Origin: Streptomyces erythrochromogenes | GTDB taxonomy: Bacteria; Actinomycetota; Actinomycetes; Streptomycetales; Streptomycetaceae | DNA length: 64,000 bases | Direction: 5' to 3' | Assembly: GCF_036170895.1 (NCBI RefSeq) | Contig: NZ_CP108036.1 | Span: 3,286,001-3,350,000, forward strand | Part shown: piece after piece, positions 46,932-63,550 of the stretch | Numbering within the stretch: the stretch's first letter is position 1 | How the letters are laid out: the number at the start of each line of letters is the position of its first letter | Notes under the pieces: generated by a model | What the model saw: the letters and a program-made list of their open reading frames with translations, nothing else | Databases searched by the model: none | Told to the model about the DNA's origin: nothing | Position numbers and translations under genes: made by a program

Positions 46932-46943
46932 CTACGCGCGTAG
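46932..46943. promoter_or_regulatory. Palindromic operator CTACGCGCGTAG before the nucleoside phosphorylase
   Basis: This perfect 12-bp palindrome ends 25 bp before the start codon. The identical 12-mer is found before deoC (58113-58124) and add (63539-63550), and I found it nowhere else in the window. Its place near the transcription start suggests repression. Confidence 0.8.
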
Positions 46944-46968
46944 GCAATGAGCGGCTACGCTCGTCTGC

Positions 46969-47775
46969 GTGAACGCATCTGTTACCGATCCCACCGCCGC
47001 CGCCGACGCCGCAGCCGCCCGCCTGCGGGAGCTCACCGGCGCCGAGACCCACGATGTCGCCCTCGTCATGGGCTCCGGCTGGGCGCCCGCCGCCGAGGCC
47101 CTGGGCGCCCCCGAGGCCGAGTTCCTCGTCACCGAGCTGCCCGGGTTCCCCCCGGCCGCCGTCGAAGGACACGGCGGCAAGGTCCGCTCGTACAAGATCG
47201 GCGACAAGCGCGCGCTGGTCTTCCTGGGCCGCACCCACTACTACGAGGGCCGCGGCGTCGCCGCCGTCGCCCACGGTGTCCGCACCGCCGTCGCCGCCGG
47301 CTGCAAGACCGTCGTGCTGACCAACGGCTGCGGCGGTCTGCGCGAGGGCATGCAGCCCGGCCAGCCGGTCCTGATCAGCGACCACATCAACATGACGGCC
47401 ACCTCGCCGATCATCGGCGCGAACTTCGTGGACCTGACGAACCTGTACTCGCCCCAGCTGCGCGCGCTGTGCAAGGAGATCGACCCCTCCCTGGAGGAGG
47501 GCGTCTACGTCCAGTTCCCCGGCCCGCACTACGAGACCCCGGCCGAGATCAACATGATCCGCGTCATGGGCGCCGACCTGGTCGGCATGTCCACCGTGCT
47601 GGAGGCCATCGCCGCCCGTGAGGCCGGCGCCGAGGTGCTCGGCATCTCCCTGGTCACCAACCTGGCGGCGGGCATCTCCGGCGAGCCGCTGAACCACGAA
47701 GAGGTCCTCCAGGCCGGCCGCGACTCGGCCGCGCGCATGGGCAAGCTGCTGACCCAGGTCCTCGCCCGCATCTGA
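46969..47775 (+). CDS. punA: Purine nucleoside phosphorylase (trimeric type)
   Basis: The protein has 268 residues. It splits (deoxy)inosine and (deoxy)guanosine with phosphate into base and (deoxy)ribose-1-phosphate. [14 protein letters not shown] is the phosphate loop, [10 protein letters not shown] contains the ribose/phosphate contact, and [25 protein letters not shown] includes the base pocket. The first in-frame GTG (46969) is used, 25 bp after the shared palindrome. The phosphosugar mutase follows 35 bp downstream, in the same direction. Confidence 0.94.
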
Positions 47776-47810
47776 GGCCCCGGGACCGTACGAGAGGTAA
47801 GGCGGAAGTA

Positions 47811-49457
47811 GTGCAGGAACAGGACGACCTGATCACCCGGGCGCAGGCCTGGCTGGCGGAGGACCCCGACCCGGAGACGGCGGCCGAGCTCGACGCCCTC
47901 ATCGGGGCGGGCGACACGGCGGAACTGACCGACCGTTTCTCCGGCACCCTCCAGTTCGGCACCGCCGGACTGCGCGGTGAGATCGGCGCGGGCCCGATGC
48001 GGATGAACCGCAGCGTGGTCATCCGGGCCGCGGCGGGCCTCGCGGCCTACCTGAAGGCCCAGGGCCACGCCGGCGGCCTGGTCGTCGTCGGCTACGACGC
48101 CCGCTACAAGTCGGCGGACTTCGCCCGCGACACCGCGGCCGTCATGACCGGCGCCGGGCTGCGCGCGGCCGTCCTGCCCCGCCCGCTGCCCACGCCCGTC
48201 CTCGCGTACGCCACAAGGCACCTGGGCGCCGTGGCCGGCGTCGAGGTGACCGCGAGCCACAACCCGCCACGGGACAACGGCTACAAGGTCTACCTCGGCG
48301 ACGGCTCGCAGATCGTCTCCCCGGCCGACACGGAGATCGCGGCGGAGATCGCCCGCATCGACACGCTCGCCTCGGTCCCCCGCCCGGAATCCGGCTGGGA
48401 GGACCTCGGCGACGAGGTCCTGGAGGCCTACCTGGCCCGTACGGACGCCGTGCTGACCCCCGGCGGCCCGCGCGGCGTGCGGACCGTCTACACGGCCATG
48501 CACGGCGTCGGCAAGGACGTCGTGATGGCGGCCTTCGCCCGGCACGGCTTCCCGGAGCCGGTCCTGGTCGCCGAGCAGGCCGAACCGGACCCGGCCTTCC
48601 CCACCGTGGCGTTCCCCAACCCGGAGGAGCCGGGCGCGATGGACCTGGCCTTCGCCAGGGCCGCCGAGGTCCAGCCGGACATCGTGATCGCGAACGACCC
48701 CGACGCGGACCGCTGCGCGGTGGCCGTCCCCACCGCGGACGGCTGGCGGATGCTGCGCGGCGACGAGGTCGGCGCGCTGCTCGCGGCGCACCTGGTCCAC
48801 AAGGGCGCGACCGGCGTCTTCGCCGAGTCCATCGTCTCCTCCAGCCTGCTGGGCCGGATCGCGGAGGCGGCGGGCGTCGGCTACGAGGAGACCCTGACGG
48901 GCTTCAAGTGGATCGCCCGCGTCGAGGGCCTGCGCTACGGCTACGAGGAGGCGCTCGGCTACTGCGTGGACCCCGAGGGCGTCCGCGACAAGGACGGCGT
49001 GACCGCCGCCCTGCTGGTCGCCGAACTGGCCTCGGAGCTCAAGGAGCAGGGCCGCACCCTGACCGACCTGCTGGACGACCTGGCGATGGCCCACGGACTG
49101 CACGCCACCGACCAGCTTTCGGTCCGCGTCTCGGACCTGTCGGTGATCGCCTCGGCGATGGCCGCGCTGCGCGCCGAGCCCCCGGTCTCGCTCGCGGGCC
49201 TGCGGGTCGTCTCGGCGGAGGACCTGACCAAGGGCACGGAGTCGCTGCCGCCCACGGACGGCCTGCGCTACTACCTGGACGGCGCGTACAAGGCCCGGGT
49301 CATCTGCCGCCCGTCGGGCACGGAGCCCAAGCTGAAGTGCTACCTGGAGGTCGTCGTCCCGGTGGCCGAGGCCTCCGACCTGACGTCGGCCCGCGCGACC
49401 GGCCAGGAAGTCCTGGACGCGATCAAGAAGGACCTCGCGGCGGCGATGGGCCTGTAG
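47811..49457 (+). CDS. Phosphosugar mutase (phosphomannomutase/PGM2 family)
   Basis: The protein has 548 residues of the alpha-D-phosphohexomutase family. FGTAGLRGEIGAGPMRMN, the phosphoserine loop TASHNPPRDNGYKVY, the metal loop DPDADRCAV and the C-terminal phosphate site CRPSGTEPKLK are all intact. The PGM2-like length and position after the nucleoside phosphorylase suggest it works as a phosphopentomutase, turning ribose- or deoxyribose-1-phosphate to the 5-phosphate; this is inference. GAGAGG precedes the GTG start. Confidence 0.92.
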   Translation: MQEQDDLITRAQAWLAEDPDPETAAELDALIGAGDTAELTDRFSGTLQFGTAGLRGEIGAGPMRMNRSVVIRAAAGLAAYLKAQGHAGGLVVVGYDARYKSADFARDTAAVMTGAGLRAAVLPRPLPTPVLAYATRHLGAVAGVEVTASHNPPRDNGYKVYLGDGSQIVSPADTEIAAEIARIDTLASVPRPESGWEDLGDEVLEAYLARTDAVLTPGGPRGVRTVYTAMHGVGKDVVMAAFARHGFPEPVLVAEQAEPDPAFPTVAFPNPEEPGAMDLAFARAAEVQPDIVIANDPDADRCAVAVPTADGWRMLRGDEVGALLAAHLVHKGATGVFAESIVSSSLLGRIAEAAGVGYEETLTGFKWIARVEGLRYGYEEALGYCVDPEGVRDKDGVTAALLVAELASELKEQGRTLTDLLDDLAMAHGLHATDQLSVRVSDLSVIASAMAALRAEPPVSLAGLRVVSAEDLTKGTESLPPTDGLRYYLDGAYKARVICRPSGTEPKLKCYLEVVVPVAEASDLTSARATGQEVLDAIKKDLAAAMGL

Positions 49458-49510
49458 CCCTTCGGCATGAACCGGCCTGCCTCGTCCCGTCCGGCGAGCC
49501 CGGCCACGAT

Positions 49511-49538
49511 GGCCCCTTGAGTCCCGGCTCAGGGGGCC
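49511..49538. terminator. Terminator between the mutase and the afsQ unit
   Basis: GGCCCCTTGAG pairs with CTCAGGGGGCC (one wobble) around a TCCCGG loop, between converging genes. Confidence 0.75.
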
Positions 49539-49589
49539 GTCGACGTTTCCCGGGCTCCGCCCCCAGCGGCGGCGCGCCCGTCCGTGCGG

Positions 49590-50252
49590 TCAGGCGCCCG
49601 GGGACGGAGACGCGGACGCCGTCGGGCGGACGATTTCGCCCAGGGTGGGGACAGACTCCGGGCGGGAGCGGACCGCGTCCGTGCACTCCCACGCCCGCGG
49701 CGGATCGGCGTCCGGTCCGCCCAGGACCACCGGCCCCGGGCCGGCCGACACCGTCTCGCTGCCCGCCAGCGTGCACACGATCTGCGACAACGCCACCGGC
49801 GGCAGGTCCTCCGGCTTGCGGCTGAGCCGCACCGTGCCCGCCGGGTCGCCCGGCTTCGGCGCGCCCGCCGTCAGCCCGGCCGGCACCCCGGTCGAGAAGC
49901 CGGCGTCCCGCTCCTCCGCGCTCGGCGTCCGCTCCAGCGCCTCCAGCAGCGCCTGCGCGGCCTGCGCGACGGGATCCCGTACGGTGCCCTTCTCCGCCAT
50001 CGGAACGACCCGCTCCACGCCCACCAGCTGCGATCCGCAGACCAGTTCCACCGTGGCCTGGAAACCCGGCCCCCCGCTCTGCCCGCCCGGCTGCGCCGGG
50101 GTGTCGCACGAGACGCGCGACGGCGCCGCGCCCACGTCCACGGGCACGGTCGTCGCCCGGATCCCGCAGCCCGCGGTCGCGAGCAGCGCGATCCCGACGA
50201 GCGGGACCAGTACGGCCGGCACCGCCGGCAGGGCCCTACGCATCCAAATCAC
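49590..50252 (-). CDS. Lipoprotein of the afsQ operon
   Basis: The protein has 220 residues from GTG 50252 (ATG 50243 is equally plausible). The lipobox is ATAGC, near Cys 29. Pairs of Cys (SCDTPAQ, LVCGSQ, IVCTLAG, WECTDA) suggest two disulfides. It overlaps the end of afsQ2 and is the third gene of the unit, corresponding by position to SCO4905. It probably helps the AfsQ2 sensor outside the membrane, which is inference. Confidence 0.87.
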   Translation of the reverse strand: MIWMRRALPAVPAVLVPLVGIALLATAGCGIRATTVPVDVGAAPSRVSCDTPAQPGGQSGGPGFQATVELVCGSQLVGVERVVPMAEKGTVRDPVAQAAQALLEALERTPSAEERDAGFSTGVPAGLTAGAPKPGDPAGTVRLSRKPEDLPPVALSQIVCTLAGSETVSAGPGPVVLGGPDADPPRAWECTDAVRSRPESVPTLGEIVRPTASASPSPGA

Positions 50253-51723
50253 CAGTGATCGCCTTTCCCACGTCCACCGGCAGCCGCAGGGTGAACAGCG
50301 CCCCGCCGCCCGGCACGTTGGCCGCGGTGATGTCGCCGCCGTGGATGTGCGCGTTCTCCACGGCGATCGACAGTCCGAGCCCGCTCCCGTCCGACTTCGG
50401 CCGCGACGCGCTCGCCTTGTAGAAGCGGTCGAAGACGTGCGGCAGGACCTCCTCGGGGATGCCCGGCCCGTTGTCCTGGACCGCGATCACCAGCCAGTCC
50501 CCCTCCACGGTCACCGACACCCGCACCGGCGAGCCGCCGTGCTTGAGCGCGTTGCCGATCAGGTTGGCCAGGATGACGTCGAGGCGGCGCGGGTCGAGGC
50601 GCGCCACGATGTCGCGCCCGGCGTCGAGTTCGACCGCGTCGAGCCAGGCCCGGGCGTCGATGCAGGCCGTGACCTGGTCGGCGACGTTGACGTCGTCCAG
50701 CACCAGCCTCGCCGTACCCGCGTCGAAGCGGGTGACCTCCATCAGGTTCTCCACCAGGTCGTTCAGGCGCCGGGTCTCGCTGACGACCAGGGTCACCGCC
50801 GGTGCGATCATCGGATCGAGGTCGTCGACCTCCTCCTCCAGCACCTCGGCCACCGCGGTCAACGCCGTCAGCGGCGTCCGCAGTTCGTGCGACATGTCCG
50901 CGACGAAGCGCCGGCTCGACTCCTCTCGCGCGCTCATGTCGGCGACCTTCTTCTCCAGCGCCTCGGCCGTCTTGTTGAAGGTGCGCGACAGGTCGGCGAG
51001 TTCGTCGGTGCCCGACACGTCGAGGCGGTGGTCCAGTTCGCCCTCGCCGAGCCGCCGCGCCGCGTCTCCCAGCCGCTGTACGGGCTTGAGCACGGTGCGG
51101 GCCGCGGCCTGCGCGAGCAGCGCGGAGCCGAGCAGGGCGAGGATGGTCGCGATGGTCAGCGACCAGGCGAGCGCGTTGAGGTCGTCCCGCTCCTGGGCGA
51201 GGGACTTGTACATGTAGCCGGTCGGCCCGCCGCCCACGATCCGCGTGCCGCCGACCAGGTACGGGTTGCCGCGCGGCTTCGTGCGCTGCCAGTACACGTG
51301 GTACTCGGCGTCGTTGGCCGCCGTCGTCTTCTGACGGTCGTTCACCGCGTTCTGCAGGGACTTCGGGACGTCGGTCAGCCGGAAGTTGTCGGGCCCGGCC
51401 GCGCCGTACATCTGGCGGTTGTCCTTGCCCTCCTGCACGAGCAGCACGCTGTAGCCGGGGCTGCTGCCCGCCATCAGCTCGGCGGTGCGCTGCAGCTCCT
51501 CGGGCGTCGGGTCGGCGGGCAGCGCGGCGGCACGGTTCTGCATCTCCTGCCGGAAGTCGCCGAGGGCGGCCTCCTGGACGCGGGTGAGCACGGCCTCGCG
51601 GTTGAGCCAGTAGGCGATCCCGGACGCGGACACGGCGGCCGTCAGGGCGACCAGTGCGAAGACGACGAGGAGCCGCAGCCGCAGGCTGGTCCAGCGCCGG
51701 CCCGCGAGCAACGACCGGATCAC
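50236..51723 (-). CDS. afsQ2: Sensor histidine kinase AfsQ2
   Basis: The protein has 495 residues from a GTG that overlaps the afsQ1 stop (GTGA); the open frame beyond it is not coding. Two helices (about 14-40 and 186-206) enclose an extracellular sensor domain. HAMP (about 207-260), the phospho-acceptor His279 in DMSHELRTPL and an ATPase with NLIGNALKHGG, DNGPGIP and GSGLGLSIA follow. AfsQ1/Q2 controls antibiotic production and nitrogen/carbon balance in S. coelicolor, being active on glutamate-based media. Confidence 0.95.
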   Translation of the reverse strand: MIRSLLAGRRWTSLRLRLLVVFALVALTAAVSASGIAYWLNREAVLTRVQEAALGDFRQEMQNRAAALPADPTPEELQRTAELMAGSSPGYSVLLVQEGKDNRQMYGAAGPDNFRLTDVPKSLQNAVNDRQKTTAANDAEYHVYWQRTKPRGNPYLVGGTRIVGGGPTGYMYKSLAQERDDLNALAWSLTIATILALLGSALLAQAAARTVLKPVQRLGDAARRLGEGELDHRLDVSGTDELADLSRTFNKTAEALEKKVADMSAREESSRRFVADMSHELRTPLTALTAVAEVLEEEVDDLDPMIAPAVTLVVSETRRLNDLVENLMEVTRFDAGTARLVLDDVNVADQVTACIDARAWLDAVELDAGRDIVARLDPRRLDVILANLIGNALKHGGSPVRVSVTVEGDWLVIAVQDNGPGIPEEVLPHVFDRFYKASASRPKSDGSGLGLSIAVENAHIHGGDITAANVPGGGALFTLRLPVDVGKAITGDLDA

Positions 51724-52397
51724 TGCGGGGAGTCCAGGCGGTAGCCGACGCCCCGGACCGTACGGATCAGGGTGGGCGAGGAGGGCACGTCCTCGACCTT
51801 GGCGCGCAGCCGCTGGACGCAGGCGTCGACGAGCCGCGAGTCGCCGAGGTAGTCGTGCTCCCACACCAGGCGCAGCAGCTGCTGGCGGGAGAGCGCCTGG
51901 CCGGGCCGGCGGCTCAGTTCGAGGAGGAGTCGCAGCTCGGTCGGCGTGAGCTGGAGGTCCTCGCCGTTCTTCGTCACGGTCATGGCGGCGCGGTCGATGA
52001 CGAGGGAGCCGAAGCTCGCCGAGTCGCTCGACTCGCGTTCGCCGCGGCGCAGTACGGCCCGGATGCGGGCGTCGAGGACCCGCCCCTGGACGGGCTTGAC
52101 CACGTAGTCGTCGGCTCCGGACTCCAGGCCGACGACCACGTCGATGTCGTCGCTGCGCGCGGTGAGCAGGATGATCGGCAGCTGGTCGGTGCGGCGGATC
52201 CGCCGGCACACCTCGAAGCCGTCGATCCCCGGCAGCATCACGTCCAGCACGATCAGATCCGGCCGCTGCTCGCGCAGCAGTTTCAGGCCGTCCTCGCCCG
52301 TCGCCGCGGTGGCCACACGGTGGCCCTGGCGTGACAGGGAGAGTTCGAGGGCCGTGCGGATGGCGTCGTCGTCCTCGATCAGCAACAGGAAAGGCAC
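51720..52397 (-). CDS. afsQ1: Response regulator AfsQ1
   Basis: The protein has 225 residues of OmpR type. GTG 52397 gives the S. coelicolor length; ATG 52415 would add six residues. The receiver has IEDDD, phospho-acceptor Asp52 in LIVLDVMLPG and the conserved Lys in DDYVVKPVQG. The winged helix ends in DSRLVDACVQRLRAKVEDVP and LIRTVRGVGYRLD. It heads the afsQ1-afsQ2-lipoprotein unit and is divergent from sigQ, with its direct-repeat site between them. Confidence 0.96.
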   Translation of the reverse strand: MPFLLLIEDDDAIRTALELSLSRQGHRVATAATGEDGLKLLREQRPDLIVLDVMLPGIDGFEVCRRIRRTDQLPIILLTARSDDIDVVVGLESGADDYVVKPVQGRVLDARIRAVLRRGERESSDSASFGSLVIDRAAMTVTKNGEDLQLTPTELRLLLELSRRPGQALSRQQLLRLVWEHDYLGDSRLVDACVQRLRAKVEDVPSSPTLIRTVRGVGYRLDSPQ

Positions 52398-52488
52398 GGG
52401 CTCATTCTGTCTCATGGGCAGTCGGGAGTTCGACCGTCAGGGGGACGAGATCCTGCGTGAGTCCGCCGGGGTCCTTCCGACGGTCGCT

Positions 52489-52504
52489 GTGACAGTGCTG
52501 TGAC
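52489..52504. promoter_or_regulatory. AfsQ1 box between afsQ1 and sigQ
   Basis: GTGAC-AGTGCT-GTGAC is an exact match to the published AfsQ1 consensus GTnAC-N6-GTnAC. It lies 94 bp before sigQ and 92 bp before the afsQ1 GTG, so it can serve both promoters. A -10-like TTAAGT follows on the sigQ side. Confidence 0.92.
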
Positions 52505-52597
52505 AGTCGACGGACACCCCGGTTAAGTCGGCCGGGCAATCTTCTACTCAACGCACAGCGATCCGAAGCAGAGACACTCCACGACGGGGGGCGCGAG

Positions 52598-53296
52598 ATG
52601 AACACGCTGCACAGCACCAGCACCAGCGCGGTTGTCACGCGGCTGCACGATGTGAACCGCCGGGCGGGTGTCCGTTCGGTGGCGGTCGCCCGGCCCCGGC
52701 CGGCCCACGTCGTAGCCATTGACGCAAACCAGTACCAGGCGGTTCCCGCCCAGCAGCCGACCCCGTCCTCGACGTCCGAGGCGGAGTTCACCGCCTACGT
52801 CCAGGAGCGGCGCGCCGCGCTGTACGCGACGGCCTTCCACCTCACCGGTGACCGTTACGAGGCCGAGGACCTGCTGCAGAGCGCGCTGTTCTCCACGTAC
52901 CGCGCCTGGGACCGGATCAGCGACAAGGCCGCGGTCGGCGGGTACCTGCGCCGCACGATGACGAACCTGCACATCAGCGCGTGGCGTCGGCGCAAGCTGA
53001 ACGAGTACCCGACCGAGGAGCTGCCGGAGACGGCCTCCGACACGGACGCGATGCGCGGTACGGAGCTGCGCGCGGTGCTGTGGCAGGCGCTGACCCGGAT
53101 CCCGGAGCCGCAGCGCACGATGCTGGTGCTGCGCTACTACGAGGGCCGTACGGACCCGGAGATCGCGGAGATCCTCGGGATCAGCGTCGGCACGGTGAAG
53201 TCGAGCATCTGGCGCTCGCTGCGGCGCCTGCGGGAGGACGAGTCGCTGAGCTTCGGCCGCGACGAGGCGGAGTCCTTCGAGGAGCTGGTCGCGTAA
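52598..53296 (+). CDS. sigQ: ECF sigma factor SigQ
   Basis: The protein has 232 residues. An unusual N-terminal extension (about 1-65) precedes region 2 (YVQERRAALYATAFHLTGDR, AEDLLQSALFSTYRAWDRI) and region 4 (RIPEPQRTMLVLRYYEGRT, IAEILGISVGTVKSSIWRSL). It is a SigE-family ECF factor. ATG 52598 follows GGGGGGCG. Divergent to afsQ1 with a shared AfsQ1 site; in S. coelicolor sigQ is an AfsQ1 target that counteracts the system. No anti-sigma gene is adjacent. Confidence 0.94.
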   Translation: MNTLHSTSTSAVVTRLHDVNRRAGVRSVAVARPRPAHVVAIDANQYQAVPAQQPTPSSTSEAEFTAYVQERRAALYATAFHLTGDRYEAEDLLQSALFSTYRAWDRISDKAAVGGYLRRTMTNLHISAWRRRKLNEYPTEELPETASDTDAMRGTELRAVLWQALTRIPEPQRTMLVLRYYEGRTDPEIAEILGISVGTVKSSIWRSLRRLREDESLSFGRDEAESFEELVA

Positions 53297-53368
53297 CGCG
53301 GCGCGGCGCACACAGACCATCGGGCCAGGGGGACCGTCCTACGGGGGTGGGACGGGGGCCGCGGGGGG

Positions 53369-53414
53369 AAAAGGCGGGATCGAGCGGCCGGGGGTCCGCC
53401 TGATCCCGCCTTTT
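53369..53414. terminator. Bidirectional terminator between sigQ and the kinase-like gene
   Basis: AAAAGGCGGGATC pairs with GATCCCGCCTTTT, with an inner GCGG/CCGC stem. The terminal A- and T-runs give it intrinsic-terminator form on both strands. Confidence 0.92.
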
Positions 53415-53472
53415 CGTGTGTACGGGTCCAGCGGCCCCCGAGGCCGGGGCCGCACACCGCACTTCGCGTCGG

Positions 53473-54105: not shown

Positions 54106-54225
54106 GGGACACCAGTCTGAACCATTCCCCCGGGTAGGGGATCCTCCCGGTGACCGGTTGGTGTCCAGGAACACACCTCCACTACGCTGCGTGCGCACGC
54201 GACTACGACCACAGGCGGGATCCCC

Positions 54226-54573: not shown

Positions 54574-54731
54574 CCCCCCGCCGCCCCCGGCGAGTGAGCC
54601 GAAGGCGGCGCGTCGGCGAAGGCGGGCGAGCGCCCGGAGTAGCCGCGAGGCGCGAGCGGCTTCGAGGACGCACGCACGCCTGGAGCCGACAACAGCGCCG
54701 CCGGAGGCGAACCGAGCCCGAAAACGAAGGA

Positions 54732-54764
54732 GGCCCCGGCAGCGCGGGGGACGCTGCCGGGGCC
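54732..54764 (-). terminator. Terminator of the deoC-aldehyde dehydrogenase unit
   Basis: GGCCCCGGCAGCG pairs perfectly with CGCTGCCGGGGCC around a 7-nt loop, 21 bp past the stop on the minus strand. The downstream side is T-rich on that strand. Confidence 0.88.
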
Positions 54765-54784
54765 GGTCTCGTAGGGGGCCGGTC

Positions 54785-55696
54785 CTAGTAGGACGAGCCG
54801 CCCGCGCCCAGCGACCCGGTGGGGTGCCAGACGGTCTTGGTCTCCAGGAACGCCGTCATGCGGGAGGTGCCCGGGTCCGCGCTCCAGTCGCCCACAGGCT
54901 GTGGACGCAGGACGCGCTTGAGGTTGTCGGCCGCCGCGATCTCCAGCTCCTTGGCGAGCGCCGCGTCGGCGCCGGCCAGGTCGATCGCGTTGACGTCCTG
55001 GTGGGACGCCAGGTGCGGGCCCATCTCGCCGGCCTTGCCGGACAGGATGTTGACCACGCCGCCGGGCAGGTCGGAGGTGGCGAGCACCTCGCCCAGCGAC
55101 AGAGCGGGCAGCGGGGACTTCTCGGAGGCGATCACGACGACGGTGTTGCCCGTCGCGATGACCGGGGCGATCACGGAGACCAGGCCCAGGAACGAGGAGT
55201 CCTGCGGGGCGACGACGGTGACGACACCGGTCGGCTCCGGGGTGGAGAGGTTGAAGAACGGGCCCGCGACCGGGTTGGCCCCGCCCACGATCTGGCCGAT
55301 CTTGTCGGTCCAGCCCGCGTACCAGACCCAGCGGTCGATGGCCGCGTCGACGACGGCGGCGGCCTTCGACTTGGACAGGCCCTCGGCCTCGCCGACCTCG
55401 CGGACGAACTGCTCGCGGCGGCCCTCCAGCATCTCGGCGATGCGGTAGAGGATCTGGCCGCGGTTGTAGGCGGTCGCGCCCGCCCAGCCGCCGAAGGCCT
55501 TGCGCGCGGCGACGACGGCGTCACGCGCGTCCTTGCGGGAGGACAGGGGGGCGTTGGCCAGCCACTTGCCCGTGCCACCCGACGATGTTTTCGCCGTCAC
55601 CTCGTACACCCGGCCGCTCTCGGAGCGGGGGAACTTGCCCCCGACGTACAGCTTGTAGGTCTTGAAGACGTTCAGACGCACAGAGGACTCAGACAT
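54785..55696 (-). CDS. Aldehyde-dehydrogenase-like protein lacking the catalytic part
   Basis: The protein has 303 residues against about 480 for the family. It keeps the N-terminal NAD-binding half: PTGVVTVVAPQDSSFLGLVS, ATGNTVVVIASEKSPLPAL and DLPGGVVNILSG. After GEMGPHLASHQDVNAIDLAG it jumps to a non-homologous tail and has no catalytic Cys segment. The cofactor site also departs from consensus (NFP to QDS). It overlaps the complete dehydrogenase by 8 bp, so it is expressed with it. It may be a regulatory or structural partner subunit; plain pseudogene is less likely because the frame, coupling and codon use are intact. Confidence 0.85.
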   Translation of the reverse strand: MSESSVRLNVFKTYKLYVGGKFPRSESGRVYEVTAKTSSGGTGKWLANAPLSSRKDARDAVVAARKAFGGWAGATAYNRGQILYRIAEMLEGRREQFVREVGEAEGLSKSKAAAVVDAAIDRWVWYAGWTDKIGQIVGGANPVAGPFFNLSTPEPTGVVTVVAPQDSSFLGLVSVIAPVIATGNTVVVIASEKSPLPALSLGEVLATSDLPGGVVNILSGKAGEMGPHLASHQDVNAIDLAGADAALAKELEIAAADNLKRVLRPQPVGDWSADPGTSRMTAFLETKTVWHPTGSLGAGGSSY

Positions 55697-57125
55697 CGAG
55701 GTAGGCCTCCAGACCGTGGCGGCCGCCTTCGCGGCCGAAGCCCGACTCCTTGTAGCCGCCGAAGGGCGAGGTCGGGTCGAACTTGTTGAACGTGTTGGCC
55801 CACACCACACCGGCACGGAGGTGGCCCGCGACCGCGAGGATGCGCGAGCCCTTCTCCGTCCAGATGCCGGCGGACAGGCCGTACTGGCTGTTGTTGGCCT
55901 TGGCGACGGCCTCGTCGGGCGTGCGGAAGGTCAGCACGGACAGCACCGGGCCGAAGATCTCGTCGCGGGCGACGGTGTGCGCCTGGGTGACGTTGCTGAA
56001 GAGCGTCGGGGCGAACCAGTAGCCGGCGGACGGCAGCTCGCACGCCGGGGACCAGCGCTCGGCGCCCTCGGCCTCGCCGGTGTCCGCGAGTGCGGTGATC
56101 CGGGCGAGCTGCTCGGCGGAGTTGATCGCGCCGATGTCGGTGTTCTTGTCGAGCGGGTCGCCCAGGCGCAGCGTGGAGAGGCGGCGCTTGAGGCTGTCCA
56201 GCAGCTCGTCGTGGATCGACTCCTGGACCAGGAGGCGGGAGCCCGCGCAGCAGACCTGGCCCTGGTTGAAGAAGATGCCGTTGACGATGCCCTCGACGGC
56301 CTGGTCGATGGGGGCGTCGTCGAAGACGATGTTGGCGCCCTTGCCGCCCAGCTCCAGGGTGACCTTCTTGTCGGTGCCGGCGATCGAGCGGGCGATGGCC
56401 TTGCCGACCGCGGTCGAGCCGGTGAAGGCGACCTTGTTGACGTCCGGGTGCTCGACGAGGGCCGCGCCCGCGTCGCCGTACCCGGTGAGGATGTTGACGA
56501 CACCCTTGGGCAGGCCCGCCTGGCGGCAGATGTCCGCGAAGAAGAGCGCGGAGAGCGGGGTGGTCTCGGCGGGCTTCAGGACGACCGTGTTGCCGGTGGC
56601 GAGCGCCGGGGCGATCTTCCACGCGAGCATGAGCAGCGGGAAGTTCCACGGGATGACCTGGCCGGCGACGCCGAGCGGGCGCGGGTTCGCGCCGTAGCCC
56701 GCGTGGTCGAGCTTGTCGGCCCAGCCCGCGTAGTAGAAGAAGTGCGCGGCGACCAGCGGGAGGTCCGCGTCGCGGGTCTCCTTGATCGGCTTGCCGTTGT
56801 CCAGGGTCTCCAGGACGGCGAGCTCGCGGCTGCGCTCCTGGATGATCCGGGCGATGCGGAAGAGGTACTTGGCGCGCTCGGAGCCGGGCAGCGCGGACCA
56901 CTTCTCGAAGGCCTTGCGGGCGGCCTTCACGGCACGGTCCACGTCGGCGGCGCCGGCCTGGGCGACCTCGGAGAGGACCTCCTCGCTGCTGGGCGAGACG
57001 GTCTTGAAGACCTTGCCGTCGGCGGCGTCGGTGAACTCACCGTCGATGAAGAGCCCGTAGGAGGGGGCGATGTCGACGACCGAGCGGGATTCGGGAGCCG
57101 GTGCGTACTCGAAGAGGGATGCCAT
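55689..57125 (-). CDS. Aldehyde dehydrogenase, complete
   Basis: The protein has 478 residues. PWNFPLLMLAWKIAPALATG, the Gly motif FTGSTAVGKAIA, LELGGKGANIVFDDA with the general-base Glu, and FFNQGQVCCAGSR with the catalytic Cys are all present. It is 5 bp downstream of deoC and probably oxidises the acetaldehyde that DeoC releases. Substrate is inferred from position only. Confidence 0.94.
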   Translation of the reverse strand: MASLFEYAPAPESRSVVDIAPSYGLFIDGEFTDAADGKVFKTVSPSSEEVLSEVAQAGAADVDRAVKAARKAFEKWSALPGSERAKYLFRIARIIQERSRELAVLETLDNGKPIKETRDADLPLVAAHFFYYAGWADKLDHAGYGANPRPLGVAGQVIPWNFPLLMLAWKIAPALATGNTVVLKPAETTPLSALFFADICRQAGLPKGVVNILTGYGDAGAALVEHPDVNKVAFTGSTAVGKAIARSIAGTDKKVTLELGGKGANIVFDDAPIDQAVEGIVNGIFFNQGQVCCAGSRLLVQESIHDELLDSLKRRLSTLRLGDPLDKNTDIGAINSAEQLARITALADTGEAEGAERWSPACELPSAGYWFAPTLFSNVTQAHTVARDEIFGPVLSVLTFRTPDEAVAKANNSQYGLSAGIWTEKGSRILAVAGHLRAGVVWANTFNKFDPTSPFGGYKESGFGREGGRHGLEAYLDV

Positions 57126-57130
57126 GGTGA

Positions 57131-58093
57131 TCAGTCCACCGTCACGTAGTCGGGACCGGAGTAACGGCCGGTGCTCAGCTTCTGGCGCTGCATCAGCAGG
57201 TCGTTGAGCAGGCTGGAGGCGCCGAAGCGGAACCAGGTGTTGCTCAGCCAGTCCTCGCCCACGGTCTCGTTGACCAGGACCAGGAACTTGATCGCGTCCT
57301 TGGTGGTGCGGATGCCGCCGGCCGGCTTCACGCCGATCTGGATTCCAGTCTGCGCCTTGAAGTCGCGGACGGCTTCGAGCATGAGCAGGGTGTTCGCGGG
57401 GGTGGCGTTGACGCCCACCTTGCCGGTCGACGTCTTGATGAAGTCGGCGCCCGCGAGCATGCCGATCCAGGAGGCGCGGCGGATGTTGTCGTAGGTCGAC
57501 AGCTCGCCGGTCTCGAAGATGACCTTCAGGCGGGCGGCGCTGCCGTCGGGACGGACGCAGGCCTCCTTGACGGCCTTGATCAGCTCGTACGTCTCCAGGT
57601 AGCGGCCGGCGAGGAAGGCGCCACGGTCGATGACCATGTCGATCTCGTCGGCGCCGGCGGCGACGGCGTCACGGGTGTCCGCGAGCTTGACGGGCAGCGC
57701 GGCGCGGCCCGCCGGGAAGGCGGTGGCGACGGAGGCGACCTTGACGTCGGCTCCGTTCAGCGCGGCCTTGGCGGTCGCCACCATGTCGGGGTAGACGCAG
57801 ACGGCGGCCGTCATCGGGGTCGTACGGTCGGTCGGATCGGGATTGACGGCCTTGGCGGAGAGCGCCCGGACCTTGCCCGGGGTGTCCGCGCCTTCCAGCG
57901 TCGTCAGGTCGATCATCGAGATGGCCAGGTCGATGGCGTACGCCTTGGCCGTCGTCTTGATCGAACGGGTGCCGAGGGAGGCCGCGCGGGCCTCCAGACC
58001 GACAGCGTCGACGCCGGGCAGCCCGTGCAGGAAGCGGCGCAGCGCACTGTCGGACGTCGTCACGTCAGCGAATGCGGTGAGGGTGGTGGGCAT
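57131..58093 (-). CDS. deoC: Deoxyribose-phosphate aldolase
   Basis: The protein has 320 residues. It cleaves 2-deoxyribose-5-phosphate to acetaldehyde and glyceraldehyde-3-phosphate. The Schiff-base Lys is in FIKTSTGKVGVN, the proton-relay Lys in GVKPAGGIRTTKDA, and AAGADEIDMVIDRGAFLAG is also present. It is longer than E. coli DeoC (259) but like other actinobacterial forms. ATG 58093 follows CTGGTGA; GTG 58099 is also possible. The shared palindrome is 19 bp upstream, so expression should follow nucleoside supply. Confidence 0.95.
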   Translation of the reverse strand: MPTTLTAFADVTTSDSALRRFLHGLPGVDAVGLEARAASLGTRSIKTTAKAYAIDLAISMIDLTTLEGADTPGKVRALSAKAVNPDPTDRTTPMTAAVCVYPDMVATAKAALNGADVKVASVATAFPAGRAALPVKLADTRDAVAAGADEIDMVIDRGAFLAGRYLETYELIKAVKEACVRPDGSAARLKVIFETGELSTYDNIRRASWIGMLAGADFIKTSTGKVGVNATPANTLLMLEAVRDFKAQTGIQIGVKPAGGIRTTKDAIKFLVLVNETVGEDWLSNTWFRFGASSLLNDLLMQRQKLSTGRYSGPDYVTVD

Positions 58094-58112
58094 GGTCACC
58101 AGATGAGCATAT

Positions 58113-58124
58113 CTACGCGCGTAG
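58113..58124. promoter_or_regulatory. Palindromic operator CTACGCGCGTAG before deoC
   Basis: It is identical over all 12 bases to the sites before the nucleoside phosphorylase and add, at a similar distance (19 bp) from the start codon. Confidence 0.82.
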
Positions 58125-58344
58125 CGACCTGTCACCCCCCTCCCCCGATTCCGGGCGATCCGCTACGGAATCGACACCTCCGCCTCCTGTTACCCGGCCA
58201 TGACAGGAGGGCGATCGTCCACACGCACAAGATCAATAGATTCTTCCCAGCAGCCCGCCAGACCTCACCGGACGAAAACCCGCAGAGAAGAACGCGGCAT
58301 GCGGCTCTCCTCCACTTCCCCAGGCAACGCTTCAGGGAGTCGTT

Positions 58345-59397
58345 ATGCGTACCGCCCTCCGTGCCTCCCTCGCCACCGCCGTCCTCACCGGCGCGCTCCT
58401 CGCCCCCGCCGCGGGCGCCGCGCACGCCGCCACCACCGTCCGGCAGGCTGCCGCGGTCACCTCGCAGAGCGGCGCCGACCGGTTCTCGGGCATCCCGGTC
58501 CACATCGGCGAGGGCCTGGTCGCGGTGCTGCGCCACGAGGCGGAGGGCCCGGAGGCCTGGATCCGCGCCGTCGGACCGGACTGGAAGCCCGGCGACAACT
58601 ACATGTTCCGCGTGCTGACCGTGCTGGACCGCGCGAACCCCGGCGACACCGTCAACGGCCTGGACCTGGAGATCACCAAGGTGAACTCGGCCGCCCCCGT
58701 CCTCACCGTCGCGAAGGCCGGCGCCACCAGGTCCTTCCCGCTGCCGCTGTCCGAGGCGGGCCGGACCCACGGCGCCCGGTGCGTCTCCGCCACGCAGCGG
58801 CTCGGCCTGCACGGGACGCTGGTCGCCGACCTGACGACGACCCCCGAGGGGCCGCAGGTGCAGTTGGTGGACGGGATCACCAAGGAGCCCTACAAGAAGC
58901 TGACGCGCACCGGCCCCGCCCTGGCGAAGGGCGACCTGACCGTCGCCCGCATCGTGAACCCGGGCGCGGCCCTGCCCTCCTTCGAGTACGAGACCCCCGG
59001 CGGGGAGCACCCCTTCGGGACGGCGCGCTTCCCGGAGCTGCCCGCGGGCTGCGCGTTCACCTACCCCTTCGAGGACGAGGCCCCCGCCCCGGAGCCGGAG
59101 GGCACGCCGTCCGCCGGAGCCTCCACCGCCCCCTCCAACGCGCCGGCCGCGAAGCCGTCGCCCGCCACCGCCGCGGCGGGCCCGAAGGCGCAGACCGCGG
59201 GCCGGACGGCCGTCGTCCGAGAGGGCGGCGTCGCCGCCGGCGCGGAGGACACCGGGCTCACTGAGGTCGACGGAGCCGCCGCCGCGGACGCCGACGACTC
59301 CACGACCGCCTACGCGGGCGCCGGCCTCGCCGCCATCGTCGCCGGCCTCGGCGCGTCCTTCCTCACTCGCCGCCGCGCCGCCCGCCCCCGGCGCTGA
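58345..59397 (+). CDS. Secreted, C-terminally anchored surface protein
   Basis: The protein has 350 residues. A signal peptide (about 1-28) is followed by a globular domain (about 45-240, with ARCVSATQRLGLHGTLVADL). Then come a Pro/Ala/Glu-rich stalk and a C-terminal helix (AGAGLAAIVAGLGASFLT) with a basic tail (RRRAARPRR). The layout resembles a sortase substrate, but no LAxTG or LPxTG is seen before the helix (EDTGLTEVDG is the nearest), so a plain membrane anchor is likelier. Function is unknown. Confidence 0.8.
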   Translation: MRTALRASLATAVLTGALLAPAAGAAHAATTVRQAAAVTSQSGADRFSGIPVHIGEGLVAVLRHEAEGPEAWIRAVGPDWKPGDNYMFRVLTVLDRANPGDTVNGLDLEITKVNSAAPVLTVAKAGATRSFPLPLSEAGRTHGARCVSATQRLGLHGTLVADLTTTPEGPQVQLVDGITKEPYKKLTRTGPALAKGDLTVARIVNPGAALPSFEYETPGGEHPFGTARFPELPAGCAFTYPFEDEAPAPEPEGTPSAGASTAPSNAPAAKPSPATAAAGPKAQTAGRTAVVREGGVAAGAEDTGLTEVDGAAAADADDSTTAYAGAGLAAIVAGLGASFLTRRRAARPRR

Positions 59398-59467
59398 CAC
59401 GCCCCACGCCCTCCGGCCCCGTTCCCGCGGCCCACCGCGTACGCCGGAGCCTTACCCGCGACGGGCC

Positions 59468-59497
59468 GAGATCGGCTGGTCCGTGTACGCCGATCTC
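59468..59497 (+). terminator. Possible terminator of the surface-protein gene
   Basis: GAGATCGGC pairs perfectly with GCCGATCTC around a 12-nt loop, 70 bp after the stop. Shorter than the other hairpins here. Confidence 0.5.
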
Positions 59498-59531
59498 GTC
59501 GGCTGAGATGGCGTGGGGCAGAATCGACCCC

Positions 59532-60167
59532 ATGAGCAGCCAGCAGCCGACCGATGAGCCGGTCTACGACGACCGGGTCTACCGCTCCTCCATGGGCGTC
59601 GTCTCGGGGGTGCTGCTGCTCGCGCTGACGGCATGGCTCTGCGGGGACGCCGTGGTGCGCGGCTCGGGGAACACCCCGTGGATCGCGCTGGCGGCTGCGC
59701 TGTGCGCGGTACCCCTGATCGTGGCGTTCACGATCCGCCCGGCCGTCTTCGCCAACGACGACCGGATGCGCGTACGGAACCCCTTCCGGATCATCGAGCT
59801 GCCCTGGGCCGCCGTGGACGCCGTGCGCTCCGGCTACTCGGCGGAGGTGCTGGCCGAGGGGTCGAAGTACCAGCTGTGGTCCGTGCCCGTCTCGCTGCGC
59901 GAGCGGAAGAAGGCCAACCGCCAGCGCCTGCGCCACGAGGGCCTCCGCGACCGGGAGGACCGGTCGCCGGGCGGGAAGGTCCGGGCCCCCGCCGAGCCGA
60001 TGCGGGCCAGTGCGGACCGGATCGTCGACGAGCTCCAGAGGCTGGCCGAGCGCGGGGCCGAGCGGCCCGGCGCCCAGGGCGGCGTGCGCGTGCACTGGTC
60101 GTACGAGATCATCGCGCCCGCCGTGGCCGGCGCGCTGCTGCTGATCGTCCTGGTCGCCACCCGCTGA
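59532..60167 (+). CDS. PH-domain membrane protein
   Basis: The protein has 211 residues. Two N-terminal helices (about 22-42, 48-66) lead into a bacterial PH-like domain (FANDDRMRVRNPFRIIELPW, VDAVRSGYSAEV). A basic helical stretch and a final C-terminal helix (IIAPAVAGALLLIVLVA) follow. An upstream ATG at 59508 is possible. Function is unknown; such proteins are commonly involved in envelope processes. Confidence 0.82.
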   Translation: MSSQQPTDEPVYDDRVYRSSMGVVSGVLLLALTAWLCGDAVVRGSGNTPWIALAAALCAVPLIVAFTIRPAVFANDDRMRVRNPFRIIELPWAAVDAVRSGYSAEVLAEGSKYQLWSVPVSLRERKKANRQRLRHEGLRDREDRSPGGKVRAPAEPMRASADRIVDELQRLAERGAERPGAQGGVRVHWSYEIIAPAVAGALLLIVLVATR

Positions 60168-60260
60168 CCGGGGCCGGCGGCCGACGGCCGGCACGGACCG
60201 TGCGCGCCACCACACCCCCGAGGCGGAACCAGGGCTACCAGGTGATGCGTCCTCGCAGGT

Positions 60261-60839
60261 GTGCAGCGTATTGAGGCCGACGGCGCTCCCGCCGGCGCCA
60301 CCGCGATCCCCCTCCGTCTCCGACTCCTGTCCGGGGTCCTTCTCGCCGCCCATCTCCTGGTCGTCGGCTGGCTGACCCTGCGCCCCCTCGACGTCCCCTG
60401 GGCCGCCGCCGGCAATCTGACCCCGCTGGAGGGGATCAGGGCCGACCTCACCCTCGGGCCGCTGGAGGCCACCCGGCGGATCGGGGAGGGAATCGCGCTG
60501 CTGGCCCCGCTCGGGGTGCTGATTCCGCTCGTCAGCGGGCGGCTCTGGCTGTCGAGGCTGGCCGAGTGGTCCTCCCTGGTGCGGACCACCGCCGCGGGCG
60601 CGCTGGTCTCGCTCAGCATCGAGATGCTCCAGAGCGGGGTCCCGGGCCGGGTCGTCGACGTGGACTCGGTGCTGCTGAACACCCTCGGCGTGCTGCTGGC
60701 GCACGCGGCCGTCGTACCGGCACTGCGGGCACGGATGCGCCGCTCACATGCCGTTTATCAGGGGGACACCCCGAAGATTTCCAGGGTCGGGCTCGGCCCC
60801 TGGACCGACGTTCTGTCGGCGGTCCAGCGGGAGTATTGA
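60261..60839 (+). CDS. VanZ-like membrane protein
   Basis: The protein has 192 residues. Four helices are visible, with LIPLVSGRLWL, LSIEMLQSGVPGRVVDVDSV and LLNTLGVLLAHA, which make up the E-Q-R-D-D-N-G signature of the VanZ family. VanZ gives low-level teicoplanin resistance in enterococci; most homologues have no known role. Start GTG 60261 has a poor ribosome site. Confidence 0.87.
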   Translation: MQRIEADGAPAGATAIPLRLRLLSGVLLAAHLLVVGWLTLRPLDVPWAAAGNLTPLEGIRADLTLGPLEATRRIGEGIALLAPLGVLIPLVSGRLWLSRLAEWSSLVRTTAAGALVSLSIEMLQSGVPGRVVDVDSVLLNTLGVLLAHAAVVPALRARMRRSHAVYQGDTPKISRVGLGPWTDVLSAVQREY

Positions 60840-60877
60840 GTCATCGCAAGAAAGCGATCCCGACGAAGGAGAACCCC

Positions 60878-61078
60878 ATGAGCGCCCTGGTCCGCCCCCG
60901 TGACGGCCGTTGGATCGGCGGAGTCTGCGCCGGACTCGCACGGCGTTTCGGAATTTCCGCGAACGCGATGCGCGCCATATTCGCCGTCTCGTGCCTGCTG
61001 CCCGGCCCGCAGTTCCTGATCTACATCGCGCTGTGGGTGCTGCTGCCGAACGAGAAGTCCACGTCGACCGCCTGGTAG
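60878..61078 (+). CDS. PspC-domain small membrane protein
   Basis: The protein has 66 residues. The whole protein is one PspC domain: RDGRWIGGVCAGLARRFGI, then a hydrophobic helical hairpin ending in ALWVLLPNE. GAAGGAGAACCCC precedes ATG 60878. PspC domains take part in membrane-stress sensing. It follows the VanZ-like gene by 38 bp, probably in one unit. Confidence 0.92.
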   Translation: MSALVRPRDGRWIGGVCAGLARRFGISANAMRAIFAVSCLLPGPQFLIYIALWVLLPNEKSTSTAW

Positions 61079-61087
61079 CGGGGCCGC

Positions 61088-61855
61088 TCAGCCGGCCTTC
61101 CGGACCTTCTCCAGCTGCTTGTCGGTCACTTCCTGCGGCACCAGGACCTTCTGCCGGCCGCCCGCCACGTTGAGTGCCATCAGCCGCACGACGGTGTCGC
61201 CCTCGCGTACGACGACCAGGTGGACCGGCGCCGAGACGCCCTGGCCGGCCGCGGTCGTGGTCCAGCTGACACTCTCGTCGCCGCTCGTGCGGTAGTCGGC
61301 GGTGCGGACCTCGCGGTAGCTGCCGGTCTGCTTGTCGACCGTGGCGGAGAAGCCCGTGCCGCAGGCGGCGACGGCGGCCTTGAGCCGGGCGAGCAGCGCC
61401 TTCGCTTCGCTCTCGGAGTAGGAGCTGACGGAGGCGGAGACAGCGAGCCCCGTCTGCTTCTGGGATCCGATGCCCCGGTTGACGGTCTCGCGCGCGGCGG
61501 GGTCCGGCTTGTCGCCCATGATGTCGGCGAGCGGCTGGCAGGCCTTCTTGTCGGCCTGCGGCTGGCCGTCCGGGGCGCCCGGGTTCTTGCCCTGGGCGGA
61601 GACCTGGTAGCCGGGCAGGTCGCCCTGGGCGAGCGCGGACCGTTCCAACGTGGTGCCCCCGGCCTTCGGCGGGGCCGATCCGGCCGGGTCCGGGCTCGCC
61701 GCGGGGGCGCCGGGCGCGCCGCCGGCGCTGCCCTCGGACCCCTTGGGGTCGGGGGACCTTCCCGTCGCGGGGGCGTCCGTACTGCTGCACCCCACCGCGG
61801 CGAACAGCAGGGCGGGTACCAGTGCGACCAGCGTCGCTCGTGCCTTCATGCGCAT
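61088..61855 (-). CDS. Lipoprotein of unknown function
   Basis: The protein has 255 residues from ATG 61855 (GAGG 9 nt upstream; ATG 61870 is an alternative). The lipobox ends AAVGC (about Cys 23). A Pro/Gly/Ser linker (about 25-75) leads to a domain with KKACQPLADIMGDKPDPA and VAACGTGFSATV, whose two Cys may bond, and WTTTAAGQGVSAPVHLVVVR. It is exported and lipid-anchored; the role is unknown. Confidence 0.87.
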   Translation of the reverse strand: MRMKARATLVALVPALLFAAVGCSSTDAPATGRSPDPKGSEGSAGGAPGAPAASPDPAGSAPPKAGGTTLERSALAQGDLPGYQVSAQGKNPGAPDGQPQADKKACQPLADIMGDKPDPAARETVNRGIGSQKQTGLAVSASVSSYSESEAKALLARLKAAVAACGTGFSATVDKQTGSYREVRTADYRTSGDESVSWTTTAAGQGVSAPVHLVVVREGDTVVRLMALNVAGGRQKVLVPQEVTDKQLEKVRKAG

Positions 61856-61986
61856 GACCGAGAACCTCATACCCAGTGCGTCGGCGGGCAGTTGGTGGTG
61901 ATCGTGGCACACCGCACGGCGGCACACACACCTCGTCGAAGAGGCGTGCGACCGCCGTGCGTGCGTTCGTCCGTCTCGCGTCGGCG

Positions 61987-62235
61987 TCAGCCGTTGAGGG
62001 CGCCGGTGACCGGGCCCAGCAGGCCGGTGACCGCGGCGGTGGGGTCGCTCGGCTGTCCCTCTTCGGCCTTCATCTGCTGCTGGCTGGTAACACCCTCGAG
62101 CGCGCCGGTGGCGGTGCCGAGCGCGTCGGTGATGCCGATGGCGGGAACGGCGGCGGAGGCGGTACCGGCGGCGACGGCGGCGAGGGCGGCACCGACGGCG
62201 GCGGCACCGAGGAACTTGGCAGCTGACTGCTTCAT
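61987..62235 (-). CDS. Very small secreted protein
   Basis: The protein has 82 residues. A signal peptide ends near AGTASAAVP (about 28). The mature 54 residues are Ala/Gly/Thr-rich with ALEGVTSQQQMKAEEGQPSD and a C-terminal VTGLLGPVTGALNG. A similar SLLGPLAP ending occurs in the small secreted protein at 54226. AAGGAA precedes the ATG. Function is unknown. Confidence 0.78.
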   Translation of the reverse strand: MKQSAAKFLGAAAVGAALAAVAAGTASAAVPAIGITDALGTATGALEGVTSQQQMKAEEGQPSDPTAAVTGLLGPVTGALNG

Positions 62236-62320
62236 GAAAGGTATTCCTTGCGACGGGGAATTGAGCGGCTCCGCAAACTAGTCACTTCAAACCCCCGCCC
62301 GCAAACATCCGCTAATACGA

Positions 62321-62356
62321 GAAAGCGCCCGGAAATTGCCTCTCCCGGGCGCTTTC
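62321..62356 (-). terminator. Terminator of add
   Basis: GAAAGCGCCCGG pairs with CCGGGCGCTTTC around a 12-nt loop, 18 bp past the add stop. The minus-strand side continues into a T-rich stretch. Confidence 0.87.
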
Positions 62357-62374
62357 AGTACGTCATGCCATGGC

Positions 62375-63523
62375 CTAGGCCGAGACAGAACCGCTGGTGG
62401 AGGCGGTCTGACGGAACAGCCACTCCGACTTCAGCTCCGCGTAACCCGGCTTGATGACCTCATTGATCATGGCCAGTCGTTCATCGAAAGGAATGAACGC
62501 GGACTTCATCGCATTGACGGTGAACCACTGCATGTCGTCCAGCGTGTAGCCGAAGGTGTCCACGAGGTGCTCGAACTCGCGGCTCATGCTGGTGCCGCTC
62601 ATCAGGCGGTTGTCGGTGTTGACCGTGAGCCTGAAGTGCAGCTTCCGCAGCAGGCCGATCGGGTGCTCGGCGTACGAGGCGGCCGCGGCCGTCTGCAGGT
62701 TCGAGGTCGGGCACATCTCCAGGGGGATGCGCTTGTCCCGGACGTAGCTGGCCAGGCGGCCCAGCTTGACCGAGCCGTCCTCGGCGACCTCGATGTCGTC
62801 GATGATCTTCACGCCGTGCCCGAGGCGGTCGGCGCCGCACCACTGCAGGGCCTGCCAGATCGACGGCAGGCCGAAGGCCTCACCCGCGTGGATCGTGAAG
62901 TGGTTGTTCTCGCGCTTGAGGTACTCGAAGGCGTCGAGGTGACGGGTGGGAGGGAACCCGGCCTCGGCACCGGCGATGTCGAAGCCGACCACGCCGTTGT
63001 CGCGGTAGCGGTTGGCCAGCTCCGCGATCTCCAGCGCGCGGGCCGCGTGGCGCATCGCGGTCAGCAGGGCGCCGACGCGGATGCGGTGGCCGTTGGCCTT
63101 GGCGCGGCGCTCGCCCTCGCGGAAGCCGTCGTTCACTGCCTCGACGACCTCTTCGAGGGTCAGGCCGGCTTCCAGGTGCTGCTCGGGGGCGTAGCGGATC
63201 TCGGCGTACACGACGCCGTCCTCGGCCAGGTCCTCGGCGCACTCGGCGGCGACGCGGAAGAGGGCCGCCTTCGTCTGCATGACCGCGCAGGTGTGCGCGA
63301 AGGTCTCCAGGTAGCGCGGCAGGGAGCCGGAGTCGGCGGCCTCGCGGAACCAGATGCCGAGCTTGTCGGCGTCGGTCTCGGGGAGGTTCTCGTAGCCGAC
63401 CTCGCGGGCCAGCTCGATGATGGTCCCGGGACGCAGTCCACCGTCGAGGTGATCGTGCAGGAGCACCTTCGGGGAACGACGGATCTGATCCGGGGTCGGC
63501 AGGTTGGGGGTCTCGCTCGTCAT
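62375..63523 (-). CDS. add: Adenosine deaminase
   Basis: The protein has 382 residues. It converts (deoxy)adenosine to (deoxy)inosine. The zinc and catalytic motifs [20 protein letters not shown] (catalytic Glu), [10 protein letters not shown] and [12 protein letters not shown] are present. The last has Asn where the consensus has a second Asp (TDD), but the first, zinc-binding Asp is kept. Start ATG 63523 lies 15 bp from the shared palindrome. Its product inosine is the substrate of the phosphorylase at 46969. Confidence 0.95.
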
Positions 63524-63538
63524 CTGCGCACTCTACTC

Positions 63539-63550
63539 CTACGCGCGTAG
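63539..63550. promoter_or_regulatory. Palindromic operator CTACGCGCGTAG before add
   Basis: This is the third identical 12-bp copy, 15 bp upstream of the add start. A gene on the other strand starts at 63637, so the site could also affect it, but distance favours add. Confidence 0.82.

Follow-up and report, generated by a model that had tools for sequence, protein, structure and literature searches.

In Escherichia coli, nucleoside catabolism is controlled by DeoR and CytR, and purine metabolism is governed by PurR regulons, whose regulator is of the LacI type in E. coli and senses phosphoribosyl pyrophosphate (PRPP) in Bacillus subtilis. Here we describe by computation a 12-bp perfect palindrome, CTACGCGCGTAG, including how widely it is conserved, which genes it targets, and how it is placed relative to -10-like boxes. 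It recurs before nucleoside genes in a 64-kb stretch of DNA (the window, to which all coordinates refer) and elsewhere in the same 8.6-Mb query genome. Judged from sequence, a single dimeric DNA-binding protein, most likely a repressor, very probably uses it as the operator of a nucleoside regulon found across a bacterial family. As in the E. coli DeoR/CytR system, one type of operator stands before deoC, deoA, the purine nucleoside phosphorylase (PNP) gene, and nucleoside uptake genes, with the logic of a repressor. The operator of E. coli DeoR, however, is TGTTAGAATTCTAACA, and the sites described here are spread over separate transcription units that include purS and a dihydropyrimidinase operon. 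The sole protein tested for orthology to E. coli DeoR, a local DeoR-family protein, stays below the cut-off of NF007961 (73 bits versus 244). The joint control of de novo purine synthesis and purine or nucleoside uptake recalls PurR regulons, but the core targets here are nucleoside breakdown genes, and the operator and presumably the protein differ.

The DeoR-family protein is encoded in the window at 43597 to 44547 (minus strand; Pfam HTH_DeoR and DeoRC), and we take SCO4920 to be its counterpart. SCO4920 is listed in PMC3224704 and PMC4848846, and the portions of these papers available to us give no nucleoside target or site for it. Likewise, PunR and NupR are dedicated regulators of purine or nucleoside uptake in E. 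coli and Bacillus thuringiensis (PMC8376909, PMC9430930); the likeness lies in that dedication, and the accessible text reveals no evident link to CTACGCGCGTAG. The exact 12-mer string also appears in the available text of a DNA structure review and of a GapR paper. The literature searched, which left most subscription journals and regulon databases outside its scope so that an earlier description is possible, held no description of the site or the regulon, and nothing on transcriptional control of nucleoside use in Streptomyces turned up in it. As a kind, the operator and its regulon are like many others; what is new is their content and reach.

Exact copies of CTACGCGCGTAG lie at 46932 to 46943, 58113 to 58124, and 63539 to 63550, with the start codons of PNP, deoC, and add 25, 19, and 15 bp away, respectively. 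A preliminary description of this DNA had given these positions and distances, and our sequence search agreed; it had also reported no further copy in the 64 kb, which holds for exact copies, as we found no fourth one in the window. Base composition predicts 0.007 exact copies per 64 kb and 0.92 per genome, and the Poisson chance of at least three in the window is about 5e-8. Allowing two mismatches adds one site, at 2194, making four matches compared with 4.5 in shuffled sequence. The first copy precedes the PNP gene (46969 to 47775, plus strand; Pfam PNP_UDP_1, NCBIfam TIGR01698 above cut-off), which is followed by a phosphomutase of the PGM/PMM family (47811 to 49457, plus strand; Pfam PGM_PMM_I to IV), a probable phosphopentomutase by inferred role. 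The second precedes deoC, encoding deoxyribose-phosphate aldolase (57131 to 58093, minus strand; Pfam DeoC and NCBIfam TIGR00126 above cut-off, both scanned on the longer open reading frame [ORF] 57131 to 58135). Behind deoC lie an aldehyde dehydrogenase gene (55689 to 57125) and a second gene of that family (54785 to 55816), both on the minus strand and both matching Pfam Aldedh. The third precedes the adenosine deaminase gene add (62375 to 63523, minus strand; Pfam A_deaminase, NCBIfam NF006847 above cut-off).

The whole query genome holds four exact copies within a span of 31.3 kb, every one before nucleoside genes, and no exact copy of the reversed control word. The fourth copy lies 14.7 kb past the add copy, before an operon in which Pfam identifies an ABC ATPase, two permeases, cytidine deaminase (cdd), and thymidine phosphorylase (deoA). 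This nucleoside-type ABC operon stands directly behind a Bmp-type lipoprotein gene, and the palindrome is 233 bp from the ABC ATPase ORF start used, the true start codon being uncertain. A copy with one mismatch, CTATGCGCGTAG, is found 16 bp before deoA. Thus deoA, cdd, and nucleoside transporters, which had been named beforehand as genes whose appearance in a genome scan would support a regulon, are all marked by exact or near-exact copies.

Conservation was followed in 80 Streptomyces loci found by their Add protein (the closest 80 of 584). The exact site precedes add in all 80, versus a maximum of 8 loci and a mean of 0.24 for 119 control palindromes scored within one mismatch. All 15 loci that could be assessed for deoC have it, exact and 19 bp before the gene (controls, 0), and 24 of the 46 that could be assessed for deoA share an identical one-mismatch variant there (controls, at most 4). 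No site within one mismatch occurs in the named loci before ALDH1 (45), LysR (71), sigma factor (63), MFS (71), response regulator (67), cdd (43), or perm1 (5). The palindrome is therefore kept at promoters of functionally linked genes and absent from control genes, as expected of an operator. At add, no variation is seen in the 12 positions or in the T preceding and the G following them, and positions farther out vary; at deoC, almost the entire 30 bp are alike across the 15 loci.

We also collected 114 distinct exact sites outside the query genome, in stretches fetched from part of the family genomes, a count that tells what the sites adjoin and not what fraction of genes has one: 33 precede add, 28 PNP, 25 deoC, and 9 the ABC ATPase, leaving 19 others. 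With 95 of the 114 before these four genes, the word is not found mainly at random genes (the preliminary description had said that its being common there would refute the regulon), and conservation before add, deoC, and PNP orthologues across the family supports that idea. Before PNP orthologues in other family genomes, the site lies 24 to 132 bp from the projected starts. Among the 19 non-core sites, 11 are tied to recurrent or related targets: one at a contig end behind a Bmp gene (L056), which is the position of the ABC site, three before purN, one before purS-purQ, four at a secreted protein family, and two beside an Opp-type transporter.

Some of these family sites have unusual settings. 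Five of the 33 add sites belong to a second adenosine deaminase gene (about 61% identical; L052, L061, L097, L099, and L150), where the exact operator sits at the gene's start, in the first codons. In the four with printed codons it falls within the first seven, and GTA is kept in four and GCT in three. Both codons are rare in Streptomyces, and their retention suggests that selection acts on the DNA word. One genome carries a pair of exact operators at deoC, spaced 70 bp apart (L051:3965 and 4035), and in another an exact operator lies 16 bp before a gene for a HAD-type hydrolase, possibly a nucleotidase (L103:4071).

The exact word is present in 101 of 101 genomes of the family sample (the query's own included) and in 16 of 16 genera, with 353 exact copies versus 46 of the reversed word and at least two copies in 92 of the 101. 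In 21 genomes near or including the query, it is found in 13 of 13 members of the genus, and the eight order-mates have no copy or one; in 31 genomes of the order, it occurs in 16 of 16 of the genus and 3 of 15 others, with one copy each. A class-wide sample of 118 genomes has it in 10 of 10 of the genus and 5 of 108 others. Because it is found in every family genome sampled but in few others, CTACGCGCGTAG is a feature of the family, which, given the named Streptomyces relatives, is presumably Streptomycetaceae. The out-of-family exact sites (seven in five genomes) were set aside as chance, none lying within 400 bp of the starts of 20 query proteins; those of three order-mates (L064 to L066) were treated likewise, with no query gene within 400 bp.

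Of the regulon first proposed, limited to nucleoside catabolism, the core targets are borne out, but the scope was too narrow, since purS and a dihydropyrimidinase operon also belong. In these wider searches, 119 control palindromes were made by half-site permutation. We examined two de novo purine genes, purS and purN, and an operator stands before purS: in the query genome, CTACCCGCGTAG lies 55 bp from the listed ORF start, with purL presumably downstream of purS-purQ. Across 27 family genomes, a purS site is found within two mismatches in 22 and within one in 18 (controls, at most 3 and 1). At purN, the site is exact in 3 of 27 genomes and within two mismatches in 5 (controls within one mismatch, at most 2). 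The three exact purN sites are nevertheless clear. They come from three genomes of two genera (L126:3986, L131:3163, and L134:3924), and purH follows purN in the two loci of the three that were scanned; they extend the regulon deeper into de novo purine synthesis in those lineages.

The dihydropyrimidinase operon carries CTACGTGCGTAG 30 bp upstream in the query genome and encodes a carbon-nitrogen hydrolase, a class-III aminotransferase, dihydropyrimidinase (TIGR02033 above cut-off), and a luciferase-like protein. From these enzymes it probably serves pyrimidine-base breakdown; the carbon-nitrogen hydrolase itself scores 257 bits with its best NCBIfam model, N-carbamoylputrescine amidase, short of the curated cut-off of 410. 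The hydrolase gene is present in 24 of 30 genomes, and 18 of 25 promoters have a site within two mismatches and 17 within one (controls, at most 3 and 1). All 17 keep the outer CTACG and CGTAG, and the two central bases vary, so CTACG-NN-CGTAG describes the recognized pattern best, positions 4 and 5 tolerating some change (purS, deoA).

The palindromes hold defined positions relative to predicted promoter elements. At add, a TANNNT follows at offset 4 in 72 of 80 loci and at offset 3 in the other 8 (background, 0.002), the query having TAGAGT at 63530 to 63535 (minus strand), 3 nt downstream. At deoC, it follows 1 nt behind the palindrome in 15 of 15 (background, 0.003), as TATGCT at 58106 to 58111 (minus strand) in the query. 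The palindrome thus abuts the -10 box at both genes, in keeping with the earlier suggestion that its position fits a repressor. Because the start codons follow so closely, the add and deoC messages are probably leaderless. In 17 of 22 purS sites, a -10-like box (TACGCT, TAGTCT, and similar) lies exactly 14 nt behind the palindrome, which places most purS palindromes over the -35 region.

We infer that a protein binds the palindrome, represses transcription, and responds to a metabolite. Such a regulator would control the nucleoside-type ABC-cdd-deoA operon, add, PNP-phosphomutase, and deoC with the aldehyde dehydrogenases and, through slightly degenerate sites, also the dihydropyrimidinase operon and an operon for de novo purine synthesis that begins with purS. 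When bound, it would occupy the DNA immediately upstream of the -10 box at add and deoC or the -35 region at most purS promoters, and RNA polymerase would be blocked until an intracellular signal lifted repression. The signal may be a metabolite of the pathway, such as ribose or deoxyribose phosphate, PRPP, or a nucleoside.

Several observations weigh against an operator of this reach. Most stretches behind the 114-site count were picked for holding the word. The 80 named loci, for their part, come from the nearest relatives of the query (87 to 100% identity), so the conservation of their flanks is partly shared descent. Eight of the 19 non-core sites are unexplained, most lying within or beside ORFs with no evident link. 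The deoA variant is present in just 24 of 46 loci, and a TANNNT begins within the nine positions behind it in 0 of 24. At purS, a site within two mismatches is missing in 5 of 27 genomes (G151, G154, G157, G158, and G163) and in all three order-mates searched (0 of 3); five of the 22 sites that are present (G152, G153, G159, G162, and G229) have a degenerate right half, lie farther upstream, and have no -10 box at 14 nt. Seven of the 25 dihydropyrimidinase operon promoters have no site within two mismatches, nor do five paralogues of the carbon-nitrogen hydrolase gene, left out of the 25, have a site. The purN sites are lineage limited, the 5 of 27 being no better than the best control palindrome, which also reaches 5. 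No examined site precedes a regulator gene, so an autoregulatory clue is missing. Finally, mismatched forms of CTACGCGCGTAG show no genome-wide enrichment in the query genome over the reversed control (20 places versus 26 within one mismatch, and 203 versus 632 within two), so only exact copies, or near-exact ones at conserved promoter positions, are informative. Of the 16 one-mismatch sites there, 3 are those of deoA, purS, and the dihydropyrimidinase operon, about 8 are within ORFs, and the other 5 are near genes with no evident link.

That the palindrome is a chance or otherwise nonregulatory conserved word draws on the same lack of enrichment within one or two mismatches, and on the high G+C content, which favors CG-rich palindromes and goes with 46 copies of the reversed word in 101 genomes. 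For the core targets, chance is refuted by the 80 of 80 exact add promoters, against a control maximum of 8, and by the functional coherence of the targets, and we consider this explanation extremely improbable. An activator site, or activation at some promoters and repression at others, would accommodate the variable position of the palindrome, which lies against the -10 box of add and deoC, precedes a -10-like box by 14 nt in most purS sites, and sits farther upstream in five purS promoters, as well as the lack of a -10 box close to the deoA site. The placement directly against the -10 box at add and deoC is, however, the classical position of a repressor, making activation an unlikely role. 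A repressor operator remains our preferred reading, and the question becomes which protein binds it.

The best named candidate is the DeoR-family protein at 43597 to 44547, which the preliminary description had already suggested and which as a local counterpart of E. coli DeoR would sense (deoxy)ribose phosphate or PRPP; we regard it as a serious but rather doubtful choice. All 21 family genomes examined have an orthologue (77 to 100% identity), situated within or close to the nucleoside cluster wherever positions are comparable, and the 19 same-genus genomes listed have one too; this proximity is weak evidence, however, because the whole neighborhood is conserved. Its DNA-binding residues 4 to 60 have a mean pairwise identity of 0.998, compared with 0.923 for residues 101 to 230 (distinct sequences from 44 loci), a comparison for which the ungapped identities of LysR, Add, and PNP are unusable as controls. 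The only Protein Data Bank sequence match, to its sensor domain, is part of a deoxyribose operon repressor (7l6l), yet by NCBIfam score the protein is nearer to AgaR (186 bits, cut-off 260) than to E. coli DeoR. Its closest relatives in other sampled families are at most 68% identical, but the SEVTVRRD helix also occurs in 13 loci of relatives from two other families (54 to 68% identity). The pattern search covered 11 of these genomes, and 10 of them do not have the 12-mer. Those 13 loci contain no operator within one mismatch and a few two-mismatch matches, and the four that were partly scanned have sugar-related genes nearby. Further, the best match in the 250 bp upstream of the deoR-type gene itself has three to five mismatches in 21 family genomes, and autoregulation through CTACGCGCGTAG was accordingly rejected. 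This promoter, upstream of 44547, is strongly alike across most of the 16 genera; many rows contain short dyads of its own (AACA-N5-TGTT and CTGCT-GAA-AGCAG), and a -10-like box stands near the GTG. These features may reflect an autoregulatory element distinct from CTACGCGCGTAG and a leaderless mRNA.

We lean instead toward an unlinked transcription factor of another family (e.g., LacI, TetR, XRE, or MarR) that would sense purine compounds or PRPP in the manner of PurR. The regulon joins purS to nucleoside uptake, as PurR regulons do; the 12-bp palindrome is unlike the TTTC-type sites of DeoR-family proteins; and among the neighbors scanned in the query genome, no classical DNA-binding regulator lies beside purS or the dihydropyrimidinase operon. 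Against such a factor, no candidate gene turned up, although no genome-wide regulator survey was made, and the variable center of CTACG-NN-CGTAG speaks somewhat against a LacI-type protein, which prefers a fixed central CG. In one genome, the region that bears the operator lies between purS and a divergent Lsr2-type gene (L096:4261-4632).

Two further groups of sites stand at genes outside the core. Four homologous secreted-looking proteins (55 to 81% identical over shared parts), from four genomes of two genera, have an exact operator near their start (L046:4050, L130:3994, L137:3956, and L151:3990), and a further, one-mismatch copy accompanies that of L046, at 4027. Three of them match ABC_transp_aux below cut-off, and two contain Ig-like and carbohydrate-binding domains; the operator predicts an extracellular role for this family in scavenging nucleosides or nucleic acids. 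In two genera, related Opp-type (SBP_bac_5) transporter genes, whose binding proteins are 46% identical, have an exact operator next to them (L045:3992 and L144:9759), and they may form a further uptake system for nucleosides or nucleotides.

In Streptomyces, development and the production of antibiotics are linked to nucleoside and purine pools (GTP, ppGpp, and PRPP). With the 12-mer as bait, the exact operator offers a direct way to find the regulator, and it supplies a ready list of targets. We think it probable that Streptomycetaceae share a family-wide regulon in which one sensor and one signal would link the salvage and breakdown of nucleosides with pyrimidine-base degradation and the de novo synthesis of purines. 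From the shared site, functions are also predicted for an orphan family of secreted proteins and for an oligopeptide-type transporter.

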